Shown here: in pieces, positions 22,781-37,201 of the stretch | How positions within the stretch are numbered: position 1 is the first letter of the stretch | Layout: each line of letters starts with the position of its first letter | Source of the DNA: Saccharopolyspora endophytica | GTDB taxonomy: Bacteria > Actinomycetota > Actinomycetes > Mycobacteriales > Pseudonocardiaceae | Length of the DNA stretch: 64,000 nucleotides | Direction: 5' to 3' | Assembly (NCBI RefSeq): GCF_018070075.1 | Contig: NZ_JAGPXE010000014.1 | Location: forward strand, 1 to 64,000 | The notes under the pieces: model-generated | Told to the model about the DNA's origin: nothing | The model's database searches: none | The model's input: the letters and a program-made list of their open reading frames with translations, nothing else | Position numbers and translations under genes: made by a program

Positions 22781-23856
22781 ACGGCGTGAACTGGCGGTTC
22801 TGGGGCCTGGAGGTCCTGGCGGCCGGCCTGCCCGTTGCCGCCGTCATCGCCACCCCGGACCCGATGGGCTACAAGGTCCTGTCCGGGTTAGCGGCGGGAC
22901 TGCTGCTGCCGTTGCGGCATCGCTGGCCCCGGCTGGCCGTGCTCCTGTGCATGCCGGCGATGGCCGGTGGCCTGGGCTGGGCGGCGATCCTGGTGGCGAT
23001 GTTCCGCCTCGGGCGGGTGCGTCCGAAGCCGCCCGAACTGGCCGGGTGGGTTCTGCTGACCTGCGTGGTCGCCGTCGCGCCCGTGCTGATCACGCAGTCG
23101 CTGACACCCGGCTCGATCCTGCTGACCCTGGCGTTCGTGGTGCTGTCGGCGGGGGCGCCCGCCGTGCTGGGGCTGCTGGTGGCGCTGCGCGAGCAGCTGG
23201 CCGAGAGCCTCCAGCGGCTCGCCGACGCCGGTGAAGTGGTCGCGCAGGCCAAGGCCGAGATGGCCAAGTCCGAGGAGCGCGCCCGCATCGCCCGGGAGAT
23301 CCACGACGCCGTCGGCCACCACGTCACGCTGATCGCCGTCGAGTCCGCCGCGCTCGGCGCGAGCAGCGGTGAGGCGTCCGTGCGCGAGGCCGCCACGCGG
23401 GTGCGCGGGTTGGCCAAGCAGGCGCTGGAGGAGATGCGCACGACGCTCGGGCTCAGCTCGAGCACGGCCGAGGCCGAGGCCAAGACGATCACCGACCTCG
23501 TGGGCCAGGCGCGCGCGTCCGGTGTGGACGTCGAGCTGACCGGCGAGCTGGAGCACCACGAGGTGCCGGGCGCCGTCGAGCGGGCGGCCTACCGGGTCGT
23601 GCAGGAAGCGCTGACCAACGCCTCCAAGCACGCGCCCGGCGCGGGGGTCCGGGTGGACCTGAGCAACCGGGCCGACGCGCTGCGCATCGTGGTCACCAAC
23701 GACGCCCCGGACGCCGAGCCGATCACCGAGCTCACCGGCGGAGCCGGGCTGGAGGGCCTGTCAGAGCGGATCCGCATGGCCGGCGGCGAGCTGGACGCGG
23801 GCCCGTCCGAGGACGGCGGTTTCCGGCTCGTCGCGCTGCTCCCGCAGGATTCCTAG
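22777..23856 (+). CDS. Sensor histidine kinase, HisKA_3 type
   Basis: The product is 359 aa. Residues about 5-130 hold four to five membrane helices without an obvious extracellular sensor domain. A coiled coil leads into REIHDAVGHHVTLIAVE with the phospho-His, then a HATPase domain with NAxKHAPG and a GLEGLSERI G-box. It should phosphorylate the regulator encoded just upstream; the signal is probably sensed in the membrane. Its stop overlaps that of the convergent peptidase gene in a shared CTAG. Confidence 0.9.
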   Translation: MNGVNWRFWGLEVLAAGLPVAAVIATPDPMGYKVLSGLAAGLLLPLRHRWPRLAVLLCMPAMAGGLGWAAILVAMFRLGRVRPKPPELAGWVLLTCVVAVAPVLITQSLTPGSILLTLAFVVLSAGAPAVLGLLVALREQLAESLQRLADAGEVVAQAKAEMAKSEERARIAREIHDAVGHHVTLIAVESAALGASSGEASVREAATRVRGLAKQALEEMRTTLGLSSSTAEAEAKTITDLVGQARASGVDVELTGELEHHEVPGAVERAAYRVVQEALTNASKHAPGAGVRVDLSNRADALRIVVTNDAPDAEPITELTGGAGLEGLSERIRMAGGELDAGPSEDGGFRLVALLPQDS

Positions 23857-25931
23857 CGCGCCAACGACGCGCGCAGGAAGTCGACCTGCATGAGCAGCAG
23901 GTTCTCGCTGGTCGTCTCGTCGGTGGGCATGTGGCTCACGCCCGCGAGCGGGAGCACCGAGTGCGGGCGTGCGGCGGCGGTCAGCGCCGCCGACAGGCGC
24001 AGGCCGTGGGCCAGGACCACGTTGTCGTCCACCGTGCCGTGCACGATCAACATCGGGCGTTCCAGCTTCGCGGCGTCGCGCAGCAGCGAGTTCGCCTCGT
24101 AGACCTCGGGCGAGGTGTTGGGATCGCCCAGGTAGCGCTCGGTGTAGTGGGTGTCGTAGAGCCGCCAGTCGACGACCCCGGCTCCGACGATGGCGGCGTG
24201 GAAGACGTCCGGGCGGCGCAGCACGGCCAGTCCGGCGAGGTAGCCGCCGAAGGACCAGCCGCGGATCGCCACCCGGTCGAGGTCGAGCTCGGGGTGTTCG
24301 GCAGCGGCGGCGTGCAGCGCGTCGACCTGATCCTGCAGCGGCGGACCGGCCAGGTCACCGGCGATGGCCCGGTCCCAGTCGGGCCCGCGCCCGGCCATCC
24401 CGCGGCCGTCGGTGATCAGCACCGCGAAGCCCTGGTCGGCGAACCACTGTGAGGTCAGGTAGCCCTGCTGGCGGGCCAGCACCCGCTGGGCGTGCGGGCC
24501 GCCGTAGGGGTCCAGCAGCACCGGCAGCGGCCCGTCCGCCGCGGTGTACCCGCTGGGCAGCAGCAGGGCGCTGCGCAGCTCGCGCTCCCCGAGCCGCAGC
24601 AGCCGGACGTCGAGGTCCAGGCCGTGGGCCTCGGCGTGGTTGTCGATCTCGGCGATCGTCCGCTCACCGCGCCGCACGACCACGCCCGTCCGGGCCCGGT
24701 CCAGGTCGCTGGTGGCCACGACCAGCACGTCGCCGCCGCGGGTGCCGGTGTGCACGCCGAAACCGCTGGTCAGGCGCTCGTGCCCGGTCGTGGTGACGCG
24801 GTAGAGGTGCACCTCGGCCGGGTCGTCCTCGGAACCGGAGACCAGCACGTCCTCGGTACCGATGTCGACGATGCCGCGCACCTGCAGCGGAGCCGCCGTC
24901 CACGGCCGGTCGCCGACGACCAGGCGGTAGGCGCCCTCGGCGGCGTCGATGCGCACGAGCTCACCGCCGGGAGTCCACGACGGCCAGCCCGGCTTGATGT
25001 CGATCCAGTGCGGGTCGGTGTCCCGGTGGATCTCGGTGGTGGTGCCGGCCTCGGTGTCGACGGCCAGCAGCAGCTGGGTGCGCTGGTCTCGGGTCTGCAC
25101 CGCGATCAGCGGGCTGCCGTGCCGCGACCAGTGCGCCGTGACCAGGTACGGGTAGGCGCTCCGGTCCCACTCGACGGCGACGCGTTGCCCGTCCAGCCCG
25201 ATCGCGGCGAGCGTGACCTCGGCGTTGGCGGTCCCGGCGGCCGGGTAGCGGGTGGCGACGGGTACGCGGTCGGGGTGGGCGGGATCGCCCAGGTACCAGT
25301 GCCGGACCGGGGTTTCGTCGACGCGCGCGACCAGCAGCTCCTCGCCGCTGGGCGCCCACCAGTAGCCGCGGTGGCGGTCCATCTCCTCGGCCGCGATGAA
25401 CTCGGCGGCTCCCCAGGTGACGTTGTCGCCGTCCGGTTCGGCCAGGGCGCGGTCGCCGGAGCCGTCGGCGGCGATCACGCGGAGCTGACCGGCGGAGAGG
25501 TAGGCGATGTGCCGTCCGTCGGGGGAGGGGCGCGGGTCGGCGACGGGCTGCTGGACCGGGAGCTCGCGGGCGTCACCGGTGGAGACCTCGGCGATGAACA
25601 GGCGTCCGGACAGGGTGAACACGACCTGCTCGCCGTTGCGGTCGGTGCTGTAGCCGGTGATTCCGGTCGCCCGTTCCCGCGCGCGTTCCCGCCGGGCCTG
25701 CTCTTCGGCGGTCACCTGGTCGTCGGCCTGCAGCTTCGCCGGGTCCACCAGCAACCGCTCGGCTCCGGTGGCGGTGTCCAGTGCCCAGAGCGCCGTGGTG
25801 CGGTCGGTGCCGCTGGTGGAGCGCAGGAACAGGACGCGCGCGCCGTCGCCGACGACGGTGAAGTTGCGTGGCGCACCGAGGCTGAACCCCTGCGTGCGCG
25901 CGCTCCGGCGAGGAAACGATGCGGACGACAT
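23853..25931 (-). CDS. S9 family serine peptidase (dipeptidyl peptidase IV-like)
   Basis: The product is 692 aa. An N-terminal beta-propeller (about 40-450) precedes an alpha/beta-hydrolase domain with Ser in GWSFGGYLAG, Asp in GTVDDNV and His in GVSHMPTD. AAEEMDRHRGYWW supplies the double-Glu motif that binds the substrate N-terminus in DPP4-like enzymes. No signal peptide is seen, so it is probably cytoplasmic. ATG 25931 is chosen because the family N-terminus fits; no strong ribosome site is visible. Confidence 0.92.
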   Translation of the reverse strand: MSSASFPRRSARTQGFSLGAPRNFTVVGDGARVLFLRSTSGTDRTTALWALDTATGAERLLVDPAKLQADDQVTAEEQARRERARERATGITGYSTDRNGEQVVFTLSGRLFIAEVSTGDARELPVQQPVADPRPSPDGRHIAYLSAGQLRVIAADGSGDRALAEPDGDNVTWGAAEFIAAEEMDRHRGYWWAPSGEELLVARVDETPVRHWYLGDPAHPDRVPVATRYPAAGTANAEVTLAAIGLDGQRVAVEWDRSAYPYLVTAHWSRHGSPLIAVQTRDQRTQLLLAVDTEAGTTTEIHRDTDPHWIDIKPGWPSWTPGGELVRIDAAEGAYRLVVGDRPWTAAPLQVRGIVDIGTEDVLVSGSEDDPAEVHLYRVTTTGHERLTSGFGVHTGTRGGDVLVVATSDLDRARTGVVVRRGERTIAEIDNHAEAHGLDLDVRLLRLGERELRSALLLPSGYTAADGPLPVLLDPYGGPHAQRVLARQQGYLTSQWFADQGFAVLITDGRGMAGRGPDWDRAIAGDLAGPPLQDQVDALHAAAAEHPELDLDRVAIRGWSFGGYLAGLAVLRRPDVFHAAIVGAGVVDWRLYDTHYTERYLGDPNTSPEVYEANSLLRDAAKLERPMLIVHGTVDDNVVLAHGLRLSAALTAAARPHSVLPLAGVSHMPTDETTSENLLLMQVDFLRASLAR

Positions 25932-26088
25932 GCGAACCAGCCTGCCATCACGCACACCCCGATGCCGCACCAGGTCCGGTCATTCCCACCGGTGCCACCA
26001 CCACGCGTCGACCGATGTGCCCGGCACCGTGGACACCCCTCCACGACCGGCACCGGACCTGGACACCACACCTCCGCCACCTCCACGA
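25932..26088. other. Non-coding stretch upstream of the S9 peptidase
   Basis: This is the first part of a 484-bp divergent intergenic region (25932-26415). It is rich in CACC and ACC triplets and shows no convincing gene or promoter. Repeats begin at 26089 and are listed separately. The tail, 26248-26415, holds only the GT2 gene leader. Confidence 0.5.
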
Positions 26089-26415: not shown

Positions 26416-27354
26416 ATGCACCTGTCGATCGTCGTGCCGTGCTTCAACGAGGAGCACGGATTGCAACGGCTGCGCGACGCGCTGGTCGAGGCGCTGTCCG
26501 GACACGTCCGGGATTACGAGGTGATCCTGGTCGACGACGGCAGCACCGACCGCACGTTGTCCGAGGCCCGGCGCCTCAGCGAGCACGACCCGCGGTTCCG
26601 CTACGTGTCGTTGAGCCGCAACTTCGGCAAGGAGCCCGCGATGCTCTGCGGGCTCCGGCACGCCCGCGGCCACCGGGTGGCGCTGCTCGACGCCGACCTG
26701 CAGCACCCACCGCGACTGCTCCCCCGGATGCTGGTGCTGCTCGACACCGGCTACGACCAGGTCGTCGCCCGGCGCAGCCGCTCCGGCGAACGGGCCTGGC
26801 GGACCGCCTCGTCGCGCGCCTACTACCGGCTGGCGAGCCGGTGGCTGGACGTGCGGCTGCAGGACGGTGCCGGGGACTTCCGGGTGCTGTCGCGGCGCGC
26901 GGCCGATGCGCTGCTGTCCCTGCCCGAGCACCACCGCTTCTCCAAGGGGCTGTTCGCCTGGATCGGTTTCGACACCGGCTGGGTCACCTACCGCAACGTG
27001 CCGCGCGAGACCGGTGAGTCGCGGTGGCGGCTGGCGGACCTGGTCGATCACGGCATCGACGGGCTGACCGCGTTCAACGACAAGCCGCTCCGCCCGGCGA
27101 TCTACCTCGGACTGCTCGTCGCCGGTCTCGCGGGCGTGCTCGCAGCGCTCACCGGAGCCGAGAAGCGCTGGGCAGCAGTGCCTCTCGGGTTGGGCGGTGT
27201 CCAGGTGCTGATGCTCGGCGTTCTCGGGGAGTACGTCGGTCGCGGTTACGCCGAGTCCCGGCGGCGGCCGCACTACCTGGTCAAGGAGACCGGTCCGGTA
27301 CCGGAGCCGCTGCCCGGCGAGCACCGGTTGTGCACCGCGGGACTGGTGTCGTGA
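26416..27354 (+). CDS. Family 2 glycosyltransferase, GtrB/DPM1-like
   Basis: The product is 312 aa. The GT-A domain starts LSIVVPCFNEEHGL and carries VDDGSTD and LLDADLQHPP, the nucleotide-sugar and metal-binding acidic residues. Two C-terminal membrane helices (about 228-285) match GtrB-like enzymes that load a sugar from a nucleotide donor onto polyprenyl phosphate. ATG 26416 is the family start; the frame is open further upstream but not conserved. The next gene encodes a GtrA domain, the usual partner. The sugar is unknown; GlcNAc is suggested only by the deacetylase gene downstream. Confidence 0.88.
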   Translation: MHLSIVVPCFNEEHGLQRLRDALVEALSGHVRDYEVILVDDGSTDRTLSEARRLSEHDPRFRYVSLSRNFGKEPAMLCGLRHARGHRVALLDADLQHPPRLLPRMLVLLDTGYDQVVARRSRSGERAWRTASSRAYYRLASRWLDVRLQDGAGDFRVLSRRAADALLSLPEHHRFSKGLFAWIGFDTGWVTYRNVPRETGESRWRLADLVDHGIDGLTAFNDKPLRPAIYLGLLVAGLAGVLAALTGAEKRWAAVPLGLGGVQVLMLGVLGEYVGRGYAESRRRPHYLVKETGPVPEPLPGEHRLCTAGLVS

Positions 27355-29783
27355 TGCGGCGGCTGATCGGGTCCTCGCAGTTCGGCCGGTTCGCGCTGGT
27401 GGGCGGGGTGAACACCGGCGTGCACTGGGCGGTGTACCTGGCGCTGTGGCTGGTGCTGCCGTACCTGGTGGCGCACGCGCTGGCCACCGGCGCGGCGATG
27501 CTGTGCTCCTACGCGCTGAACTGCCGGTTCACCTTCCGGGTGCGGCCGAGCGGGCGCTCGTTGCTGCTGTTCCCGCTGTCGAGCCTGGTGCTGCTGGGCG
27601 TGAGCACCTCGGCGGTGGCGCTCGCGGTGGCCGTGTTCGGGGTCGATCCGAGGCTCGCGCCGCTGGTGGGGTTCGCGCTGGTGCCGGTGACGTTCATGGC
27701 CAGCCGCTCGGCGCTGACCCGCCCGGACCGCGGTGAGTGGCGCGGTGCTGCCGGGGTGGGGCTGACCGTGGCCGGGCTCGGGACGTTGCCGCTGCTGGTC
27801 AACCCCTCGTTCTACTTCGCCGACGACAGCGCCGCCCAGTTCCTGCCGATGTGGCACCGCCTCGGCGAGCGGTTGCTGGCGGGCGAGTGGGCGCTGGGGC
27901 TGGAACCGGATTCGTGGATGGGCGGGAACCTGGCCGCCGAGTCGCTGTTCGGCATCTGGAACCCGGTGCACCTGCTGGACTTCGTCGTGGTCGCGCTGAT
28001 CGGCGACCTGGCGGTCGCGGCGGCGGTGGTGAAGATCCAGTTCCTGGTGCTGCTGGCGGTCGGGACCTACCTGCTGAGCCTGGGCTACGGGGCGAAACCC
28101 GCTGCGGCGTCGGTGATGTCGGTGGCGCTGCCGGTGTCCGGGTTCGTGCTGCACTTCCAGGCCGCGAGCTGGGCCGGTGGGCTGATGGGTCTGGCGTGGC
28201 TGCCGTGGGCGTGGTGGGCGCTGCGCCGGTACTTGAACGGAGGCGCACCGGCGGTGCTGCCGTTCGGGCTGTGCTACCTGTGCGTCTCGGCCGGAGACCC
28301 GTACGGCCTGCTCGCGTTGTGCCTGGTCTTCGCCGGGCTGGCGGTCGAATCCGGGCCGCGCCGGTTGGTCGCGATCGGTGTCGCGGTGGCCGGGTGCCTG
28401 CCGCTGGTGTTCTGGCCGGTGCTGGCGACCGCCGCGGTGGGCTGGAGGTCCGGTCGCGAGCTGTTCAACTCCGGTCTGCTGGTGCCGGGCATCGGCGATC
28501 TGCTCAACGCGAGCACGCCCGGGTTCCTGCCGCAGATCATCTCCTTCGGCGACTACCGGATGACGGTCCCCGCCACCTTCCTGTCGTGGTTCGCCGTCCC
28601 GCTGCTGCCCTGGCTGAGGTGGCGCGAGATGCCGTGGCGGCGGTGCACCGCGGTGGTGCTGGTCGCGGGGTTCTTCGCACTGCTGTGCCTGGGCCCGTCG
28701 AACGTGTGGATGTTCCGCTGGCCGCTGCGGCACATCGCGGTCGTGCACCTGGCCGTGGCGGTGCTGCTGTCGGTGGCGTTGTCCAGCGGCCTGCGACGGG
28801 ACCGCGCCTCGACGCGCACGGCGGCCTCGGCGCTTCTGATGCTGGCGGGCGGCTACCTGGCCTTCGCGGCTTGGCCCGCGCAAGCGCCCAAGCACCTGCT
28901 CGGACTGGTGCTGGTCGCCGGGCTGCTGGCGTGGGCCCTGCGCGGCAGGGTGTTCCCGGTGCTGCACCTGGGGACGGCGTTGGTGCTGGGGCTCCAGCTG
29001 CTGTGGTTCCCGATCAACCGCGACGTCGCCGACTACAACTTCCCGACCGACGTCGACGCCCTGCGCCGCGCCCACGCGCCGCTGCGCGGCGGCACGGTGG
29101 TGCAGGTGGCGGCACGGGAGCGGATCCCGCCGGAGCACATCGCCGACCGCAGCGCGTGGTCGGACCTGCTGCTGGGCAACATGCCGGCCGCTGCCGGTGT
29201 CGCGAGCCTGGTGTCCTACACCGGGATCGGCCACGACGCCCTGCACACGTCGTTGTGCCTCAGCTACTTCGGCGGAACGTGTCCGCGTGCCTACGATCGA
29301 CTGTGGGGTCCCGATCGGCTCGCCGACCAGCTCAAGGCCACCCACGTCGTGGTGCAGCGACGGCTGCGCGAGGTCACCCAGCCGCCGCCGGGCTGGCGGA
29401 TCGCGCACCGCAGCGGTGAGGTCGTCGTGCTCACCCGCATCGCTCCGGTGCCGTGGCCGCAGGGGCGGTTGAGCGCGGCTCGCGGGGTTGAGGTGCTGGA
29501 GGACGTGCAGCGCGGCGCGCGGACCGAGACCGTGAGGTTCACCGGGAGCGGGGACCTCGTGTTCGCGCGGCTGTTCTGGCCCGGCTATCGGGCCACTGTG
29601 GACGGACGTCCGGTGCCGATGTCCGCGACCGGACCGGGGCTGCTGCACGTGCGGGTTCCGCGTGAGATCTCCGGCGGGACGCTGACGTTGTCGTGGTCGC
29701 CACCGGGCGCCGAGGTGGGGCTGCTGCTGGTGGTCGCGGGGGCGCTGGGCGCGCTGTGGATGTCGTGGCGGTGGGCGCGATGA
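27354..29783 (+). CDS. GtrA flippase domain fused to large YfhO-like membrane protein
   Basis: The product is 809 aa. Residues about 1-125 form a GtrA-like four-helix domain (FGRFALVGGVNTGVHWAVY, then CSYALNCRFTFR). From about 135 on there is a second protein-like unit: a long extracytoplasmic loop with FADDSAAQFLPMWH, about ten further helices, a soluble domain (about 570-780) and a last C-terminal helix. This part resembles YfhO/GT-C glycosyltransferases, whose first loop carries acidic catalytic residues. The gene shares one base with the GT2 stop and overlaps the next gene by 4 nt. I infer that it flips the polyprenyl-linked sugar and then transfers it. The fusion is the odd feature. Confidence 0.82.
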   Translation: MRRLIGSSQFGRFALVGGVNTGVHWAVYLALWLVLPYLVAHALATGAAMLCSYALNCRFTFRVRPSGRSLLLFPLSSLVLLGVSTSAVALAVAVFGVDPRLAPLVGFALVPVTFMASRSALTRPDRGEWRGAAGVGLTVAGLGTLPLLVNPSFYFADDSAAQFLPMWHRLGERLLAGEWALGLEPDSWMGGNLAAESLFGIWNPVHLLDFVVVALIGDLAVAAAVVKIQFLVLLAVGTYLLSLGYGAKPAAASVMSVALPVSGFVLHFQAASWAGGLMGLAWLPWAWWALRRYLNGGAPAVLPFGLCYLCVSAGDPYGLLALCLVFAGLAVESGPRRLVAIGVAVAGCLPLVFWPVLATAAVGWRSGRELFNSGLLVPGIGDLLNASTPGFLPQIISFGDYRMTVPATFLSWFAVPLLPWLRWREMPWRRCTAVVLVAGFFALLCLGPSNVWMFRWPLRHIAVVHLAVAVLLSVALSSGLRRDRASTRTAASALLMLAGGYLAFAAWPAQAPKHLLGLVLVAGLLAWALRGRVFPVLHLGTALVLGLQLLWFPINRDVADYNFPTDVDALRRAHAPLRGGTVVQVAARERIPPEHIADRSAWSDLLLGNMPAAAGVASLVSYTGIGHDALHTSLCLSYFGGTCPRAYDRLWGPDRLADQLKATHVVVQRRLREVTQPPPGWRIAHRSGEVVVLTRIAPVPWPQGRLSAARGVEVLEDVQRGARTETVRFTGSGDLVFARLFWPGYRATVDGRPVPMSATGPGLLHVRVPREISGGTLTLSWSPPGAEVGLLLVVAGALGALWMSWRWAR

Positions 29784-31429
29784 GAACTGCCGCGCTGCTG
29801 CTCGCGGTCGCGTTGCTGCTGGTCGCCTCGGGGGTCGCGGCGGCGGGTTCACCGAGGCCGTCGCACCTGCAGGTCGTGGCGCACCCCGACGACGACATGC
29901 TGTTCATGAGCCCGGACGTGCCCTTGGCGATCCGCTCGGGTGTTCGGGTCACGACGGTGTTCCTCACCGCCGGCGAGAGCGACGTGCGCCCGCCCGCGGA
30001 CTACGCGGCGAGCCGCCAGGCCGGTGCTCGCGCCGCGTTCGCGGCGATGGCCGGGGTCGCCGACGACTGGACGCGCTCGGCGCTGGACCTCCCCGGAGGT
30101 CGCTGGGCGGAACTGCACCGGCTCCGCGGGCGCCCCTCGGTGGGCCTGGTGTTCCTCGGCCTGCCCGACGACAACGACCCGCGCGCGCGGCACGCGCTGA
30201 GCGAGCTCTGGCGGAATCCGGCGCACCGCGTGGAGACCGTCGCCGCGACGGGGTCGGTCGTGCCCGTGACCGGCCACGACCGCGGTTCAGTGATCGATGC
30301 GCTGATCCGCCTCCGGGAGCTGTTCGCGCCGACGCTCGTCCGCACCCAGGACCCGCGACCGGACCCGCGCCACCAGCAGCAGTGGGGGAGCGCCCACGAC
30401 CACCCCGACCACCTCGCCACCGCTCGGTTCACCGAAACCGCGCTGATCGGAACCGATCTGCCGCTGCTGCACTACCGCGATTACAACGTCGCCGACGCAC
30501 CGCCGAACCTCCCGCAACGCGTGGTGGAAGCAAAGCGCGCGGTGTTCGCCCGCTACGCCGAGCACGATCCGCTGGTCAGCCTCGACGAGCCCTACGACGC
30601 CTGGCTCGCCGCGATGCGCCTGCGCAGGCCGTGGGGAACGCGGTGGCTGACCGGCGGTCGCCACGCGCACGTGCGCGGCCGTGACCTGGTGATCGGGGAA
30701 TCCGTTGTGGACACACCCGGGTTCGATCCGCGCGAGGGGTCGGCGTCCTTCGCCGATCCCGCGACGCTGCTGGTGCAGGACCGGGATTCGGGTGCGGTGT
30801 GGCTCAAGGCCGCGGGCCGGCCGTGGCGGTCTCTGGGCGTGCCACCGCCGCGGGAACCGGGCGTGGACCTCGGGCCGCCGTCGGCGGTGTCGGTGCGGGG
30901 GCGCGTGGTGGTCGCGGTCCGCGACTCCGGCGGCGGGGTGAGCGTCCGCGACACCGGGGCGTGGTGCCGGCTCGGCGGCTCCGACGTGGGCGACGAGGTG
31001 TCGGTGCTGGTCTCGGGGAGCGGCGGGATCCACGTGATGGCCGCTTCCCGGAGCGGGATGCTGCACTGGCGGCTGACCGACTCCGGATGCGGTGCGCCCC
31101 TTGCTTCCTCCGAGCGTCCGGTCGGCGCCATCGCCACCACCAGCGGGTACGCCGCCTACCGCGACTCCCGAGGCGATCTGGTGGTGCTGGCCGAGCACGC
31201 GGGGTGGAAGCGGGTGCGGACCATCGCGGCCGGGGCGATCTCCGACCCGGCGATCGCCCCGGGCCCGGTGCTGGCCGCCCGCAACGCCGACGGACTCCTG
31301 CAGATCTTCCGGCCGGACGGCACGACCACTCTCGGACCCGTCGAAGGGCAACCCGCCTTGTCGCCGAACGGAGATCAGGCCGCCGCCCTCACGGGCGACG
31401 GCCTGATCAGGACCTTCTCCGTTCCCTAG
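29780..31429 (+). CDS. Secreted PIG-L (LmbE-like) deacetylase with C-terminal propeller-like region
   Basis: The product is 549 aa. A signal peptide or anchor (residues 1-23, LLLAVALLLVASGVAAAG) precedes a PIG-L domain with AHPDDDMLFMS and a second metal motif HDHPDHLAT. Such enzymes remove acetyl groups from N-acetylglucosamine units. Residues about 310-549 contain repeated beta-rich stretches (WLKAAGRPW, MLHWRLTDSG, LQIFRPDGTTTLG) that look like a propeller or lectin-type domain. ATG 29780 overlaps the preceding stop, so it is translationally coupled. Its stop forms a shared CTAG with the convergent permease gene. An extracellular deacetylase fits a role after sugar transfer. Confidence 0.87.
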   Translation: MRTAALLLAVALLLVASGVAAAGSPRPSHLQVVAHPDDDMLFMSPDVPLAIRSGVRVTTVFLTAGESDVRPPADYAASRQAGARAAFAAMAGVADDWTRSALDLPGGRWAELHRLRGRPSVGLVFLGLPDDNDPRARHALSELWRNPAHRVETVAATGSVVPVTGHDRGSVIDALIRLRELFAPTLVRTQDPRPDPRHQQQWGSAHDHPDHLATARFTETALIGTDLPLLHYRDYNVADAPPNLPQRVVEAKRAVFARYAEHDPLVSLDEPYDAWLAAMRLRRPWGTRWLTGGRHAHVRGRDLVIGESVVDTPGFDPREGSASFADPATLLVQDRDSGAVWLKAAGRPWRSLGVPPPREPGVDLGPPSAVSVRGRVVVAVRDSGGGVSVRDTGAWCRLGGSDVGDEVSVLVSGSGGIHVMAASRSGMLHWRLTDSGCGAPLASSERPVGAIATTSGYAAYRDSRGDLVVLAEHAGWKRVRTIAAGAISDPAIAPGPVLAARNADGLLQIFRPDGTTTLGPVEGQPALSPNGDQAAALTGDGLIRTFSVP

Positions 31430-32769
31430 GCCGAAGCCCCAGCGGCTTCCGGTGCCCCGGCGCGCGGCGCGCGGTGCTCGCCCGGGTCGCTGTCGTCCTT
31501 CATGCGCAGCGACAGCACGCCCACCGCCAGGTACATCAGGCAGAACACGATCGTCGCGCCACCGCCCCCGACCAGCGGGTACAGCACCGTCACCACGACC
31601 GGGCCGACGAAGGCCGCGCCACCGGCGCCGAAGTTCAGCACCGCCAGCGCCGAACCCTTGTCCTTGGTGGCGACCATCGAGGGCATCAGCGCCGACAGCG
31701 GCACGAAACCGGCGAGCAGCAGGCCGTAGACCACGCCGAGCACGGCCGCCACGGCGAAGCTCTGCGAGGCCACCGAGCTGAAGTACCAGAGCGGGGTGGC
31801 GATCGCGCAACCCAGGCAGCCGAACCAGGTCACCGTGCGGCGCCAGCCGAAGCGGTCGCCGAACACGCCGAAGAACAGGTTCGCCGCGATGTTGGCGCCG
31901 TAGGCGATCGAGGCCAGCGACGCCACCTGCGCCGCGGTCAGGAATCCGCCGTCCGGCGCCGCAGGCCCGAAGGTGAACGGGAACATCGCGAAGAACCCGT
32001 ACTGCGGCGCGGTGTTGACGATGCGGATCAGGCCACCGGCGAGCACCCGGCGGTCCCGCCACAGGATGTCCACGCCTTCCGCGAGCCGCTTGAGGCTGCG
32101 CGGGTTCTCCACCGTCTCATCCGCGATCGGCTTGAGCCCGTGCTCCTCGCGCACCGCGAAGGACCCCAGCAGCACGCCGACCGTCACCACGACCAGCGAC
32201 AGCACCAGGGTCTCGTAGTCGCTGAGGCCGAACACGCCGATCGACAGCGCCGCCAGCGCGGCACCCAGAGTCGGCAGACCACCGGTGAAGGCGAACCAGA
32301 ACCAGCCGGCCACCGAACCGCGCATCTTCGTCGGGCTCGCGACCTGCGCCCACGCCAGGAACGAGAACGCGAACAGCGGATACGCCAGGCCGCGGATGCC
32401 GTAGGTCGCGACGATGAACGCTCCGCTGTGCGAGGGCAGCGCCACGAACAGGAACAGGCACTCGAACCCGACCCACCACGCACCGCCGAGCCACATCACC
32501 CGGCGCGGACCCCAGATCGCAGAGAGCGTTCCGGAGAACCACGCCGCGATCATGGCCGCGACACCGTAGAGGGTGACCGTGGCGAACGAGGCCGTCGCGC
32601 CGGGCAGCGCGCCGCCCTCGGGTCGCTGCAGGTAGTCGGACAGGAACGTGGTCTCCACGCCGTCGCCGATCATGAAGATCAGCACGGCGACGAAACCCCA
32701 GAAGAGCTGCCGCGGAATGCCTATGCGGTCGAGGAAGCCCGGGTACCCGGCTGCGGACGTTTGGGACAT
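31426..32769 (-). CDS. MFS polyol permease (RbtT/DalT/CsbX family)
   Basis: The product is 447 aa with about 12 membrane helices. The N-terminal GIPRQLFWGFVAVLIFMIGD then GVETTFLSDYL matches polyol permeases that import ribitol, arabitol or similar. ATG 32769 has a GGAGAC site upstream. A TTAAC-N9-GTTAA palindrome lies 83-101 nt upstream, shared with the operon across the DeoR gene, so it is likely the importer for that pathway. Confidence 0.87.
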   Translation of the reverse strand: MSQTSAAGYPGFLDRIGIPRQLFWGFVAVLIFMIGDGVETTFLSDYLQRPEGGALPGATASFATVTLYGVAAMIAAWFSGTLSAIWGPRRVMWLGGAWWVGFECLFLFVALPSHSGAFIVATYGIRGLAYPLFAFSFLAWAQVASPTKMRGSVAGWFWFAFTGGLPTLGAALAALSIGVFGLSDYETLVLSLVVVTVGVLLGSFAVREEHGLKPIADETVENPRSLKRLAEGVDILWRDRRVLAGGLIRIVNTAPQYGFFAMFPFTFGPAAPDGGFLTAAQVASLASIAYGANIAANLFFGVFGDRFGWRRTVTWFGCLGCAIATPLWYFSSVASQSFAVAAVLGVVYGLLLAGFVPLSALMPSMVATKDKGSALAVLNFGAGGAAFVGPVVVTVLYPLVGGGGATIVFCLMYLAVGVLSLRMKDDSDPGEHRAPRAGAPEAAGASA

Positions 32770-32851
32770 CACTGTCTCCAACAAGGTCGGATGTGTCGGT
32801 GCGTCGCCGCACCTAGCCAACGAATGTCGGCCATCATGCACCCTGTGGAAG

Positions 32852-32870
32852 TTAACGCACAAGATGTTAA
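32852..32870. promoter_or_regulatory. Candidate DeoR operator 1
   Basis: TTAAC-N9-GTTAA, within GTTAACGCACAAGATGTTAA (32851-32870), lies upstream of the polyol permease gene. An identical half-site pattern with the same spacing occurs at 33902-33920. Both are followed by GCATCAGTG a few bases to the right. Confidence 0.65.
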
Positions 32871-32889
32871 ACCGCATCAGTGGTCATTT

Positions 32890-33037
32890 TGCTCAGCGGC
32901 GCGGGTGGCGGACGCCGAGCAGCTTCGCGGGCTCCGCGCGCAGCTCCTGCATGCCAACACGACGTGCACGCCGCGAAGCCGCTGAAGAACCCGCGGTTGT
33001 TTGAGGAGAAAGCGGCTGCGTCGCTCGCCTGACGGGG
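32890..33037. repeat. Dispersed intergenic repeat, copy B
   Basis: It shares with copy A the left end TGCTCAGCGGCGCGGGT, the middle GAACCCGCGG, and the right end GGAGAAAGCGGC to GCCTGACGGGG. AGCAGCTTCGCGG (32918-32930) pairs with CCGCGAAGCCGCT (32971-32983) with one mismatch. It lies just beyond the DeoR stop at 33043 and lacks the part holding TTGCTCGGGTGGGGCA. Confidence 0.7.
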
Positions 33038-33042
33038 CGCGC

Positions 33043-33831
33043 TCAGCTCGTCGCGGACAGGCGGACCTCGGTCTGCTCCCGCATCTCCTCGACCAGCGCG
33101 TCGTCGAGCTTCCCGGCGAGCAGGACGTGGTCGAAGGCGCTGACCGGGGCGAGCTGGTGCAGCGCCGAGCGGGCGACCTTGCTGGCGTCCATCATCAGCA
33201 CCTTGGTCGTGGCGCTGCCCATCATCGCGCGCTTGACCAGCACGATCTCCTGCTCCTGGTGGTAGGTCAGGCGGGCGTTCATGGCGGAGGTGGACAGGAA
33301 CACGATGTCCACCGAGAACGTCGAGATCATCTCCTGGCACGGCAGGCCCAGGTAGGAGTCGTGCGTGCGCGAGTATTCGCCGCCGAGGCCGATGAGCCGG
33401 ATGTCGGGCACGTCGCGCAGCGCCTCTTGGACCTGCCGGTAGTTGCTGACCACGGTCAGCGGGCCGACCTCCGGCAGCAGCCTGGCCAGCGCGAGCGCGG
33501 TGGTGGAGTCGTCGAGCATCACCGACATGCCGGGCGTGATGAACCGCAGGGCGTCGGCGGCCAGCGCCTCCTTCTCGGCGGTGTGGGTGTGCAGCCGGAA
33601 GTCCGAACTGGACTCGAACACCGTGGACGGCTGGGCCGAAACCCCGCCGTGGTACTTGCGCAGCAGGCCCCGCGTCGCCAGGTCGTCGAGGTCGCGGTGC
33701 ACGGTCATCAGGCTGACCCCGGTCAGCGTGGACAGCTCCGCGGCGCTGGCGAACCCCTGCGAGAGCACGTGATCGACGATCTTCTGCTGTCGCTGGAGGC
33801 GGGGGGACTGCTTCTTCGGTGCTGACGCCAT
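33043..33831 (-). CDS. DeoR-family transcriptional regulator
   Basis: The product is 262 aa. An N-terminal DeoR helix-turn-helix (about 13-68; RQQKIVDHVLSQG, TGVSLMTVHRDLDDL) precedes the sugar-phosphate-binding DeoR-C domain with SVMLDDSTTALALA. Such proteins are usually repressors released by a phosphorylated sugar. It is divergent from the catabolic operon and between two matching palindromes, so it is the likely controller of both the permease and the operon. Confidence 0.9.
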   Translation of the reverse strand: MASAPKKQSPRLQRQQKIVDHVLSQGFASAAELSTLTGVSLMTVHRDLDDLATRGLLRKYHGGVSAQPSTVFESSSDFRLHTHTAEKEALAADALRFITPGMSVMLDDSTTALALARLLPEVGPLTVVSNYRQVQEALRDVPDIRLIGLGGEYSRTHDSYLGLPCQEMISTFSVDIVFLSTSAMNARLTYHQEQEIVLVKRAMMGSATTKVLMMDASKVARSALHQLAPVSAFDHVLLAGKLDDALVEEMREQTEVRLSATS

Positions 33832-33894
33832 GGGCTCATCTTGCCTCGTCGGGTGCGCGGAGCGGCGCAGACCTGCCGGAGTATCACTCTACTA

Positions 33895-33923
33895 GTGACA
33901 GTTAACGGCCTGAGTGTTAATTT
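33895..33923 (+). promoter_or_regulatory. Candidate promoter with overlapping DeoR operator 2
   Basis: GTGACA (33895-33900) and TAATTT (33918-33923) are 17 bp apart and could be -35 and -10 boxes for the operon starting at 33954. TTAAC-N9-GTTAA (33902-33920) fills the spacer, so a bound repressor would block RNA polymerase. Confidence 0.6.
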
Positions 33924-33953
33924 GGGTGCATCAGTGATTGGCGGGAGGTACGT

Positions 33954-34646
33954 ATGACCCAGCCGGATCGGCCGAACAGCGCCCACAGCGCGGTCGTGTT
34001 CGACATGGACGGCGTCCTGGTCGAGAGCGAGCACCTGTGGGAGCGGATGTGGACCCGCTTCGCCGCGGCTCGCGGACGCACCTGGACCGGGCAGGAGACC
34101 CGGCAGGTCCAGGGCATGAGCGCGCCGGAGTGGGCCGCGTTCCTCGCCGAGTTCAGCGAGGCCGCTGAATCCGCGGTCGAGACCGAGCGGATCGTGGTCG
34201 ACGACATGATCACCGCGCTCGACGACGGCGAGATCGACCTGCTGACGGGCGCGGAGAAGATGGTCACCGACGTCGCCGCCCGTGCACCCATCGCGCTGGC
34301 CTCCTCGGCGCCGCGACGGCTCATCGACGCCGTCCTCGACCGCCACGGGCTGACCCCGCACTTCTCGGCGACCGTGTCCAGCGCCGAGGTGCCGCGCGGC
34401 AAGCCGAGCCCCGACGTGTACCTGGCCGCGGCCGAGAAGCTCGGCCACGAGCCGCAGCACTGCCTGGCCGTCGAGGACTCCAGCAACGGGTTGCGCGCCG
34501 CCGCCCGAGCGGGCATGACGGTGGTGGCCATCCCCAACGGTGACTACCCGCCTGCCGAGGACGCGCTCGCCGGAGCCGCCCACATCGCCACCGACCTCGA
34601 TGACGTGCGGCTGAAGCTGGTCGGCTCGCTGCCGCAGGCACGCTGA
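33954..34646 (+). CDS. HAD-superfamily phosphatase or phosphoglucomutase-like protein
   Basis: The product is 230 aa. Motif I is FDMDGVLVESE, motif II ASSAP, motif III a Lys in RGKPSPDVY, and motif IV VEDSSNGLRAA. The helical cap is between motifs I and II, as in beta-phosphoglucomutase-like phosphatases. ATG 33954 has GGGAGG upstream. As the first gene of the operon it may dephosphorylate a sugar phosphate, possibly to limit toxicity; the substrate is unknown. Confidence 0.88.
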   Translation: MTQPDRPNSAHSAVVFDMDGVLVESEHLWERMWTRFAAARGRTWTGQETRQVQGMSAPEWAAFLAEFSEAAESAVETERIVVDDMITALDDGEIDLLTGAEKMVTDVAARAPIALASSAPRRLIDAVLDRHGLTPHFSATVSSAEVPRGKPSPDVYLAAAEKLGHEPQHCLAVEDSSNGLRAAARAGMTVVAIPNGDYPPAEDALAGAAHIATDLDDVRLKLVGSLPQAR

Positions 34647-34688
34647 ACTGAGCTGAGCTCGCACACCTCGCGACAAAGGAGTCCGGAG

Positions 34689-35744
34689 ATGACAAGCGTT
34701 CTGGCCGCCGGCGACCACTTCGTGCACCCCGAGGTGTTCGTCGACGCCCTGCGCCGCGCGACCACGCGCGAACTGCGCTTCGACACGCTGAAGCTGCCGT
34801 GGCCGGTGGAGCCGTTCGGCCCGGTCGGCAACGTGCAGGAGGCCAGCGGCACCGAGCAGCGGCTGCTCGACGCCCTCGGCGACAACGAGATCGTCGCCAC
34901 CCAGATGGCGCCGTTCACCGGAGACGTGCTGAGCGCCGCCGAGAACCTCAAGTTCGTCGGCGTGTGCCGGGGCGGCCCGGTCAACGTCGACCTGCAGGCC
35001 GCCACCGACAACGGCGTCATCGTCAGCTACGCGCCCGGTCGCAACGCGGCCGCCGCGGCCGAGTTCGCCGTCGGGCTCATGCTCGCCGCGCTGCGCCGGA
35101 TCCCGGGCTCGGACGCCGAGCTCAAGGACGGCAACTGGCGCGGCGACTACTACGCCTACGAGAACGGCGGCATCGAGCTCGAAGGCTCCACCGCCGGACT
35201 CGTCGGCTACGGCGCGATCGGTCGCATCGTCGCCCGCGTGCTGCGCGCGTTCGGGGCGAACGTCCTGGTGGCCGACCCGTTCGTGAACTCCGCCGAGGTC
35301 GCCGGCGAGGGCGTCGAACTGGTCGAGCTGGAGGAACTGCTGCGGCGCAGCTCGGTGGTGAGCCTGCACGCGCGGCTGACCCCCGAGACCCGCAACCTGC
35401 TCAACGCCGACAACCTCAAGCTGCTGCCGGAAGGCGCGGTGCTGGTCAACTCGGCGCGCGGCGGGCTGCTGGACTACGCGCCGCTGCCCGACCTGCTGCG
35501 CACCGGCAAGCTCGGCGCGCTGGCGGTCGACGTCTACGACATCGAACCCCCGCCGCGCGACTGGCCGCTGTTCGACGCGCCGAACGTGATCACCACCCCG
35601 CACCTGGCCGGTGCCACCCGCCAGACCGCGCACCGGGCGGCCGAGATCGTGGCCGGTGAGGTCGCCAGGTTCCTCGACGGGCAGCGGCCGCGGTTCGTGG
35701 CCAACCCGGACGTGCTGGCGAAGTTCGGAGACCTGCGGCCATGA
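34689..35744 (+). CDS. D-isomer 2-hydroxyacid dehydrogenase family protein
   Basis: The product is 351 aa. The NAD-binding motif is GLVGYGAIGRIVARVL, with catalytic Arg in NSARGGLLD and His in TTPHLAGATRQT, as in phosphoglycerate dehydrogenase relatives. AAGGAG lies at 34676-34681. It overlaps the FGGY kinase gene by 4 nt. In this operon it could oxidise or reduce a sugar acid; the substrate cannot be read from sequence. Confidence 0.88.
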   Translation: MTSVLAAGDHFVHPEVFVDALRRATTRELRFDTLKLPWPVEPFGPVGNVQEASGTEQRLLDALGDNEIVATQMAPFTGDVLSAAENLKFVGVCRGGPVNVDLQAATDNGVIVSYAPGRNAAAAAEFAVGLMLAALRRIPGSDAELKDGNWRGDYYAYENGGIELEGSTAGLVGYGAIGRIVARVLRAFGANVLVADPFVNSAEVAGEGVELVELEELLRRSSVVSLHARLTPETRNLLNADNLKLLPEGAVLVNSARGGLLDYAPLPDLLRTGKLGALAVDVYDIEPPPRDWPLFDAPNVITTPHLAGATRQTAHRAAEIVAGEVARFLDGQRPRFVANPDVLAKFGDLRP

Positions 35745-37201
35745 TCATCGGAGTGGACGTCGGCACTTCGGTGACCAAGGCATCGCTGCTGGGCCGCGAC
35801 GGGTCGGCGCTGCTGACCCGCGGCGTGCGCTCCACTCTGCACCGGCCCGCGCCCGGACTGGTGGAGCAGGACCTCGACGAGGTCGTCGATTCGGTCGTCC
35901 AGGTCGTCCGCCAGGTCGCGGCCGCCGCCACCGAACCCGTGCAGGCCCTGGCCATCACCGGCCAGGGCGACGGGCTGTGGCTGCGCGACGAGCACGGGCG
36001 CGGCGTCGGGCGCGTCATCTCCTGGCTGGACGCCCGCGCCGCCGGTGTGCTGCGCGACTGGGAGGCCAGCGGCGTGCAGCGGAAGGTGCACGCGCTGACC
36101 GGTTCCGGGATGTTCCCCGGTTCGGCCGGGCCGCTGCTGGCCCACCTCGCCGAGCACGAGCCGGAACGCCTCGAACGCGCGGCCGTCGCCGGGTACTGCG
36201 TGGACGCGATCGTCCAGCGCTTCACCGGTGAGGTCACCGTGGACGCCTCCGACGCCTCGATGCCGTTCCTCGACGTGCCCGAGCGCGTGTACTCGACCGA
36301 GGCTCTGGAAGCCTGCGGCATCGCCGAGCACCGCCGCCTGCTGGCCGACACCACCCCCGTCGGCAAGCTCTTCGCGCTCTCCGGCAAGGCCGCGGCCGAA
36401 CTCGGGCTGCCGTCCGGACTTCCCGTGTCGGCCGGGCCGTTCGACCTGCCCGCCTGCGCCTTCGGCTCCGGTGTCAGCGACATCGGCGACGGGAGCCTGG
36501 TGATCGGCACGACGCTGGGCTGCCAGGTGCTGCGCGACGAGGTCGTCATCGACCCCCGCGGCGAACCCGCCGGGATGTGGCTGGCCACGCCGATCCCGCA
36601 GCGCTACCTGCGGGTGATGCCCGCGATGGTGGGCACCGCCAACCTGGACTGGGTGCTGTCCACGACGGGATCGAGCGTCGAGCAGCTGGAAACCCTGCTC
36701 GCGCAGAGCAGGCCGGGAGCCGGTGGCGTGTCGGCGCTGTCGTTCCTGTCCTCCTCGGGCGAGCGCGCGCCGTTCGTCGACTCGCGGGCGCGCGGCCAGT
36801 TCACCGGGCTGTCGCTGGAGACCACGCCCGCCGACATGGTGCGCGCGATGTGCGAGGCGGTCGCCTACGCCGCCCGGCACAACCTGGAGAGCGCCGGGCT
36901 CAGCGGAGAGGTCGCGGCCTGCGGCGGCGGTGCCCGTTCGCAGGCGTGGAGCCAGATCTTCGCCGACGTCCTCGGCCGGCCGCTGAACGTCCCGCACGAA
37001 GAGGGCGTCGGCGCGCGGGGAGCGGCGATGACCGCGTGGGACTCGCTGGGCGAACCCGTCGACCGGGAGCAGTGGGCCGCCGACCGGCGCGTCGTGCACC
37101 CCGACCCTCGAGCCGTGGAGTTCTACGACCGCGGCTACCACGACTACTTGACCGCCATCGAACGCGCCCGGCCGCACTGGGCGCCCGTCGAGGAGGGCTG
37201 A
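35741..37201 (+). CDS. FGGY-family carbohydrate kinase (xylulokinase-like)
   Basis: The product is 486 aa. The N-terminal phosphate motif is VDVGTSVTKASLL, and the C-terminal FGGY domain contains ACGGGARSQAWSQIFADVLGRPL. It phosphorylates a ketose or polyol with ATP. The end is 1 nt from the DAK gene. It is the first of two sugar kinases in this operon, which suggests two entry points or two successive substrates. Confidence 0.92.
   Translation: MIIGVDVGTSVTKASLLGRDGSALLTRGVRSTLHRPAPGLVEQDLDEVVDSVVQVVRQVAAAATEPVQALAITGQGDGLWLRDEHGRGVGRVISWLDARAAGVLRDWEASGVQRKVHALTGSGMFPGSAGPLLAHLAEHEPERLERAAVAGYCVDAIVQRFTGEVTVDASDASMPFLDVPERVYSTEALEACGIAEHRRLLADTTPVGKLFALSGKAAAELGLPSGLPVSAGPFDLPACAFGSGVSDIGDGSLVIGTTLGCQVLRDEVVIDPRGEPAGMWLATPIPQRYLRVMPAMVGTANLDWVLSTTGSSVEQLETLLAQSRPGAGGVSALSFLSSSGERAPFVDSRARGQFTGLSLETTPADMVRAMCEAVAYAARHNLESAGLSGEVAACGGGARSQAWSQIFADVLGRPLNVPHEEGVGARGAAMTAWDSLGEPVDREQWAADRRVVHPDPRAVEFYDRGYHDYLTAIERARPHWAPVEEG

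Follow-up and report, generated by a model that had tools for sequence, protein, structure and literature searches.

Three-component glycosylation systems, such as CsbB/GtcA/YfhO of Bacillus and Staphylococcus, Lmo2550/GtcA/Lmo1079 of Listeria and GtrB/GtrA/GtrX, combine a family 2 glycosyltransferase (GT2), a GtrA-type flippase and a GT-C transferase. Excerpts of two reports describe the CsbB/GtcA/YfhO and Lmo2550 systems as adding N-acetylglucosamine (PMC5836110, PMC7389260). Here we analyse a three-gene unit with the same components in Saccharopolyspora endophytica. It lies in a stretch of 64,000 nucleotides, hereafter the window (contig NZ_JAGPXE010000014.1, positions 1 to 64,000), and encodes a GT2, a GtrA-YfhO fusion protein and an exported-type PIG-L deacetylase. 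The unit differs from the described systems in that GtrA is fused to the transferase, an exported PIG-L is present, and near relatives stand among arabinogalactan (AG) genes.

A second relevant system is the decoration of AG with galactosamine in mycobacteria and Corynebacterium (PpgS, Rv3632/Cgp_0393 and Rv3779/Cgp_0658). Rv3779 is named for the transfer step in excerpts of two papers (PMC7502851, PMC3485146), and the excerpted part of a third called the flipping and deacetylating factors unidentified in 2022 (PMC9671496). As our unit would, this pathway uses a GT2, a small membrane protein, a membrane transferase, AG as the acceptor and the removal of an acetyl group. Unlike it, our unit has a GT2 outside the PpgS family.

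NaxD-type modification, in which NaxD has FlmF2 and FlmK as partners, differs from our unit in its acceptor, lipid A, and in the family and location of its deacetylase. The likeness is that an acetyl-galactosamine deacetylase serves the addition of an amino sugar, as stated in an excerpt of PMC8232278. LmbE-like/PIG-L deacetylases (MshB, BshB, teicoplanin deacetylase) share with the unit PIG-L the HxDD + H metal motif, as given in part of a review of the family (PMC4101496), and the unit PIG-L differs from them by an export-type N-terminus and a C-terminal propeller. In the portions of text covered by word searches, the words 'extracellular', 'secreted' and 'signal peptide' each occur zero times in that review, and 'fusion', 'fused', 'deacetyl', 'PIG-L' and 'arabinogalactan' each zero times in another (PMC8035078). 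A preliminary description of the locus, made from the sequence alone, knew of no account of this exact combination of genes, and among the matches listed from openly licensed PubMed Central papers there is none either.

We show that the genes for a GT2, GtrA and YfhO recur together with a PIG-L gene in several genera, and that close relatives of the unit directly adjoin AG genes. The gene architecture and the partnership are well supported; the sugar and the acceptor are what we infer. Our proposal, tentative and a shade more doubtful than not, is that in Pseudonocardiaceae a GT2, GtrA, a YfhO-type GT-C enzyme and an exported PIG-L may constitute an undescribed system that puts a free amino sugar on AG. 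The PIG-L would be a first candidate for the deacetylase that such decoration requires outside the cell, and mycobacteria would achieve this with proteins that are not related. Free amino sugars alter wall charge, and AG decoration has been linked to the infection of Corynebacterium glutamicum by phages (excerpt of PMC9671496) and to host immunity (excerpt of PMC7502851). The unit would be a compact set in soil actinomycetes, with flippase and transferase in one protein and the deacetylase in the next gene.

Gene products of the unit

The preliminary description had the three genes joined by stop-start overlaps, which is how the open reading frames of the window read (Table 1): the GT2/GtrA-YfhO junction is TGATG, an overlap of 1 nt, and the GtrA-YfhO/PIG-L junction is ATGA, an overlap of 4 nt. 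The gene identities given there also stand. The GT2, GtrA and PIG-L domains are supported by Pfam, and the YfhO part is below its cut-off and is assigned to GT-C by its model.

The window GT2 matches Pfam Glycos_transf_2 (PF00535) with 119.7 bits and scores 298 bits against NCBIfam PgfS, below the cut-off of 500. Its best relative of solved structure is the glycosyltransferase sll0501 (residues 2-292, E-value 1.4e-60), a GtrB. The enzyme is of the GtrB/CsbB/PgfS type. Two C-terminal membrane helices can be seen by eye, and its presumed role is to load a sugar onto polyprenyl phosphate.

In the fusion protein, the GtrA domain reaches 71.5 bits against Pfam GtrA_DPMS_TM (cut-off 26.1). The YfhO part scores 21.7 bits against Pfam YfhO, under the cut-off of 28.5. 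As this match is weak, the label 'YfhO' is owed mainly to a structure prediction, which shows a GT-C fold. This AlphaFold2 model has a pLDDT of 89, and Foldseek places AftD first (6w98, E 5.5e-7), followed by STT3/PglB, with a TM-score of about 0.45 at best. At E up to 0.1, NCBIfam assigned the fusion protein to no family, and phmmer against solved structures returned only a chance match (E 0.83). The second D of the FYxxDD motif is conserved in 43 of 43 rows and the first in 39 of 43.

The window PIG-L scores 45.9 bits against Pfam PIG-L (cut-off 28.2), and phmmer against solved structures gave no match for it. Its N-terminus is, by eye, a hydrophobic stretch ending in AAAG. We aligned 28 PIG-Ls, leaving aside L130, whose C-terminal part is apparently out of frame, and L139, whose gene is truncated by the end of its contig. 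In all 28 the N-terminus is hydrophobic and the motifs HxDDD and HPDH are present; H35, D37, D38, H208, D210 and H211 are invariant in a 29-row alignment, and L130 has HTDH in place of HPDH. Among the 16 rows of the window type the N-terminal stretch mostly has an AxA-like end, again by eye, with a Cys in L131 and L133. A Cys ends the stretch in all 12 other rows, which are second copies and divergent loci (see below), and nine of these fit a PROSITE-type lipobox pattern. In keeping with the signal peptide of the preliminary description, every one of the 28 rows thus has a predicted N-terminus of signal-peptide or lipoprotein type, and none looks cytoplasmic. We are confident in the predicted location of the enzyme outside the cell, judging from these N-termini.

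The model of the PIG-L protein (pLDDT 86) consists of the PIG-L domain and a set of strands C-terminal to it. Foldseek ranks the lectin PLL first (5c9o, E 1.2e-7, TM 0.34/0.50) and the teicoplanin deacetylase 3dff at 43 (E 5.8e-6). Because the unrelated BamB and WD40 propellers score nearly as well as PLL, sugar binding by the modelled propeller is only a guess.

At a number of Saccharopolyspora loci (L125:5668-9012, L126-L129, L132 and L175) the PIG-L frame stays open for hundreds more codons, apparently over an opposite-strand transporter gene. Extra domains in these long frames (up to 1161 aa) were considered and rejected, as the additional part appears to overlie the transporter gene, and the overlong part was removed before modelling. 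At such loci gene callers may overstate the length of the PIG-L, to as much as about 1160 aa.

Co-occurrence of PIG-L with the glycosylation genes

We made two surveys. The first, less selected one looked for the window fusion protein in 249 genomes of the order and extracted 20-kb neighbourhoods. This gave eight loci with GT2, GtrA and YfhO in a row (hereafter triples), the window included, and a PIG-L was near in five of them. In the second, named genomes were scanned with an alignment of eight YfhO parts, a scan that detects only genes keeping two short motifs, and 65 loci with flanks of up to 10 kb resulted. These were searched with the unit proteins, several PIG-Ls and AG proteins from the genome G111. 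The distances, bit-score thresholds and groupings are our own choice.

The preliminary description had suggested looking for a PIG-L gene near GtrA-YfhO fusions in other genomes, and the partnership does recur. Triples make up 41 of the 65 named loci, and 29 of the 41 have a PIG-L within 6 kb; in every one of the 29 the PIG-L match is 69-308 bp from the nearest match to a unit gene. By chance a PIG-L is expected in the span at 1-2% of loci (6 to 10 PIG-Ls per genome); the window genome has seven PIG-L matches in 7.17 Mb, six of them over the cut-off. Below the triple thresholds only 2 of 24 loci have a PIG-L, both in metagenome-assembled genomes (MAGs) of Propionibacterium.

The PIG-L-bearing triples come from six genera of Pseudonocardiaceae, out of 11 triple-bearing genera when Rhodococcus and Rhodococcoides are counted together, and show two arrangements. 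PIG-L is downstream in all 16 window-type loci of Saccharopolyspora, and also in all five second copies of this genus, in which GtrA is separate. It is divergent from the GT2 in all eight triples of Streptoalloteichus, Crossiella, Allokutzneria, Saccharothrix and Solihabitans. It is highly likely, in our view, that PIG-L is a working partner of the glycosylation unit. A whole-order two-by-two table of the 249 genomes (YfhO at E<1e-50 in 21, PIG-L at E<1e-10 in 28, both in 7; Fisher p 0.004) is a weak hand count with few candidates scored per genome, confounded by kinship.

The second copies belong to five Saccharopolyspora genomes (L155, L159, L162, L180 and L182) that have a second, diverged unit with an unfused GtrA and a Cys-ended PIG-L N-terminus. 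The window genome has only one YfhO match.

Link to arabinogalactan genes and evolutionary history

The unit lies immediately before the gene for UDP-galactopyranose mutase (Glf), among other AG genes, in the genera Streptoalloteichus, Crossiella, Allokutzneria and Solihabitans. Glf is next after YfhO in G111 and in seven of the eight divergent loci (Saccharothrix excepted), and G111 and six of those seven have more such genes near, e.g. GlfT2, UbiA, DprE2, Emb or GlfT1/Wzt. At four of the eight loci examined (L134-L137) the ATG of Glf overlaps the YfhO stop as ATGA, in frame. The identity of the AG queries was checked: Glf, GlfT1, the galactan-export Wzt, DprE1, DprE2 and decaprenyl-phosphate phosphoribosyltransferase are over their NCBIfam cut-offs, and Emb and GlfT2 over those of Pfam. 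Because near relatives, which were out of sight of the preliminary description, lie in the AG locus, in an apparent operon with Glf, AG is the most likely acceptor, and for Saccharopolyspora itself we consider it the rather more probable one.

Counting Glf, GlfT1, GlfT2, Wzt, DprE, Emb and UbiA genes in the flanks as AG markers at the chosen thresholds, and dropping L177, at least one marker is present in 32 of 64 loci. Among the triples this holds for 16 of the 41, and for 7 of the 29 that have a PIG-L; in Blastococcus all four loci are classed as AG-linked solely through a GlfT2-family protein. The YfhO profile has a strong match in 5 of 20 GlfT1 stretches (L233, L234, L236, L237 and L238, from the family that holds Rhodococcus). 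The 20 were picked from the 60 genomes, out of 61, that had a match, and L236 and L238 appear to share contigs with L183 and L171.

A GlfT2-family, galactofuranosyltransferase-like protein is found near GlfT1 in 10 of these 20 stretches, in genomes of the Rhodococcus family (L231-L240; L171:12224-14110). Five of the ten stretches have a YfhO gene and five do not, and two such proteins were checked with Pfam.

In the YfhO tree (58 rows, without the broken YfhO of L177 and eight near-copies, and with L135 and L136 represented by partial YfhO), the window belongs to a clade of 25 rows (98/96), all of them with PIG-L. Besides Saccharothrix, this clade contains 17 rows of Saccharopolyspora, the window among them, and the seven units that are both AG-linked and equipped with PIG-L. 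Crossiella is the sister of Saccharopolyspora (95/91), and the window nests among AG-linked copies; probably the Saccharopolyspora unit moved away from the AG locus by relocation. GtrA and YfhO share one open frame in 14 of the 65 named loci, all of them Saccharopolyspora and amounting to 14 of the 16 window-type loci. Because the unfused pair, L130 and L133, branches first, the fusion probably arose once.

The PIG-L tree (59 rows) collects the 31 PIG-Ls of Pseudonocardiaceae units in a single group, whose support of 87/96 does not reach the tool's star, separate from 25 unlinked PIG-Ls and three from Propionibacterium. A further PIG-L of G111 (L089) also falls outside the group.

Two observations stand beside these trees. 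In the Propionibacterium MAGs, PIG-Ls lie near a YfhO gene (L151:724-8608, one on each side; L153:8902-15302), a pairing that is apparently independent, as these PIG-Ls are of another lineage in the PIG-L tree. In Streptoalloteichus, Glf is immediately followed by another YfhO-like gene, which has a long branch (L134:13414-15789; Pfam YfhO only 15.8 bits).

Proposed function and alternatives

We are confident that this is a glycosylation unit. Inside the cell the GT2 would move a sugar, most likely an N-acetylhexosamine (HexNAc), from its UDP-sugar to polyprenyl phosphate, as suggested by its family and by the PIG-L partner, and the GtrA domain, by its family, would flip the lipid-linked sugar. 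The GT-C domain, known by its modelled fold, would transfer the sugar outside to a wall glycan, for which near relatives point to AG. The exported PIG-L would deacetylate the sugar outside, with either the polymer or the lipid donor as its substrate, and leave a positively charged amino sugar. The loading, flipping and transfer supposed in the preliminary description fit the three-component systems as described in excerpts of PMC7389260 and PMC5836110. That the PIG-L converts HexNAc to hexosamine (HexN) is probable. For the complete reading, whose parts are not independent of one another, a dedicated envelope-decoration operon by which HexNAc is loaded, flipped, put on AG and N-deacetylated outside, belief and doubt are evenly balanced.

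Several results weigh against this reading, and some of them favour other explanations. Those that concern the acceptor suit the idea that the same machinery and outside deacetylation serve another glycan in Saccharopolyspora (an exopolysaccharide, teichoic-type polymer, glycoprotein or glycolipid), which we regard as unlikely, though not strongly so. The window's own unit does not adjoin AG genes, and at the chosen thresholds no AG marker lies in the flanks of any of the 16 window-type or five second-copy loci. Because these units stand apart from AG genes, AG as the acceptor is transferred to them by kinship. Elsewhere, CsbB/GtcA/YfhO systems serve lipoteichoic and wall teichoic acid in Firmicutes (excerpts of PMC7389260 and PMC5836110), and a GtrA cluster acts in the sporangium formation of Actinoplanes (excerpt of PMC13390465). 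Nevertheless, the closest relatives outside the genus, which have the same kind of PIG-L, adjoin Glf, and the more distant Rhodococcus and Blastococcus branches are also near galactan genes.

Other results concern the role of the PIG-L. Twelve of the 41 triples, from Saccharomonospora, Amycolatopsis, Umezawaea, Rhodococcus/Rhodococcoides and Blastococcus, have no PIG-L near, so glycosylation seems to work without it; nine of the twelve are AG-linked, and one, L141, has its contig cut 780 bp before the GT2. For Saccharomonospora piscinae (G174/L172), 5 of 17 candidates were scored and none matched the window PIG-L at E up to 0.001. Related PIG-Ls are present in genomes without the unit. On the YfhO tree the five second copies lie outside the 25-row clade, at a fork that they share with Umezawaea, Amycolatopsis and Saccharomonospora and that the tree leaves unresolved, and the PIG-L label needs several changes, so that PIG-L was gained or lost more than once there. 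The seed alignment has five of eight sequences from PIG-L-bearing loci, so such loci were favoured, and all loci are from related actinobacteria, hence the counts are not independent. Given this kinship and seeding, we put more weight on the genera and the two arrangements than on a p-value. The triples without PIG-L and the PIG-Ls without a unit would suit a triple that adds a plain or other sugar, next to a PIG-L that acts on an unrelated extracellular substrate and only shares transcription. We find this improbable, given that PIG-L is kept 69-308 bp from the triple across two arrangements, a second copy and six genera, and overlaps the fusion gene start to stop in the window.

It is more improbable still that the PIG-L acts on flipped polyprenyl-P-HexNAc before transfer and the GT-C enzyme uses a HexN donor, an order stated for the mycobacterial pathway (excerpt of PMC9671496), paralleled by the acetyl-galactosamine deacetylase NaxD in the galactosamine modification of lipid A (excerpt of PMC8232278) and suited to the lipoprotein-like N-termini of relatives, which would hold the enzyme at the membrane, since most rows of the window lineage have a cleavable-looking signal with no Cys at its end and the propeller could serve in polymer binding.

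In a comparison with the described AG galactosamine pathway, the window GT2 scores 27.6 bits against NCBIfam PpgS, whose cut-off is 370, and GT2s from three more triple loci score 29-46 bits. A membrane protein of 670 aa beside Wzt-GlfT1 (L222), by position and size a putative Rv3779 orthologue, has no YfhO profile match, and a profile comparison gave a probability of 0.3%. These PpgS scores and this comparison led us to stop equating the unit with the PpgS-Rv3779 pathway of mycobacteria. As far as sequence comparison goes, the unit would work like the AG galactosamine pathway, and membership in that pathway is unsupported.

Surroundings of the unit and further observations

The features of the unit are collected in Table 1. 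Its neighbours, an S9 peptidase gene (23853-25970) and a gene for an RbtT/DalT-type transporter of the major facilitator superfamily (31426-32877), are both on the minus strand, which makes the unit look like a self-contained operon. A search of the whole window with Rfam gave nothing at the gathering cut-off, and a scan for sigma-70-type promoters and terminators found none. The closest named relative at the locus is Saccharopolyspora aridisoli, with 93% in the YfhO part.

Table 1. Features of the glycosylation and deacetylation unit, in window coordinates.
Feature	Position	Strand	Size and evidence
GT2 glycosyltransferase (GtrB/CsbB/PgfS type)	26416..27354	+	312 aa; Pfam Glycos_transf_2, sll0501 match
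GtrA-YfhO fusion: flippase-like domain and GT-C type transferase	27354..29783	+	809 aa; Pfam, open frame
GtrA domain, fusion residues 12-118	27387..27707	+	Pfam
YfhO/GT-C domain with FYxxDD motif	27738..29780	+	AlphaFold2 model, Foldseek
Exported-type PIG-L (LmbE-type) deacetylase with C-terminal beta-propeller	29780..31429	+	549 aa; Pfam, model, Foldseek
Signal peptide, PIG-L residues 1-22, boundary by eye	29780..29845	+	hydrophobic stretch, AAAG
PIG-L domain, H35-x-D37-D38 and H208-P-D-H211	29867..30442	+	Pfam, alignment
C-terminal beta-propeller of PIG-L	30659..31426	+	model strands from residue 294; Foldseek

The window genome (34 contigs) has six Emb-type genes. Its AG locus, where GlfT1, Wzt, DprE1, DprE2 and Emb occur, lies on contig C16, away from the unit. 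The same locus (L217: 1351-2767 and 11268-13990) has a tandem DprE1-like pair and a further GT2-GtrA pair beside Emb.

Downstream of the unit, 31426-37201 of the window is an apparent cluster for the use of a pentitol or sugar. The RbtT/DalT-type transporter comes first, and the other genes, named by eye, are a DeoR-like regulator, a haloacid dehalogenase (HAD) hydrolase, a 2-hydroxyacid dehydrogenase and a sugar kinase.

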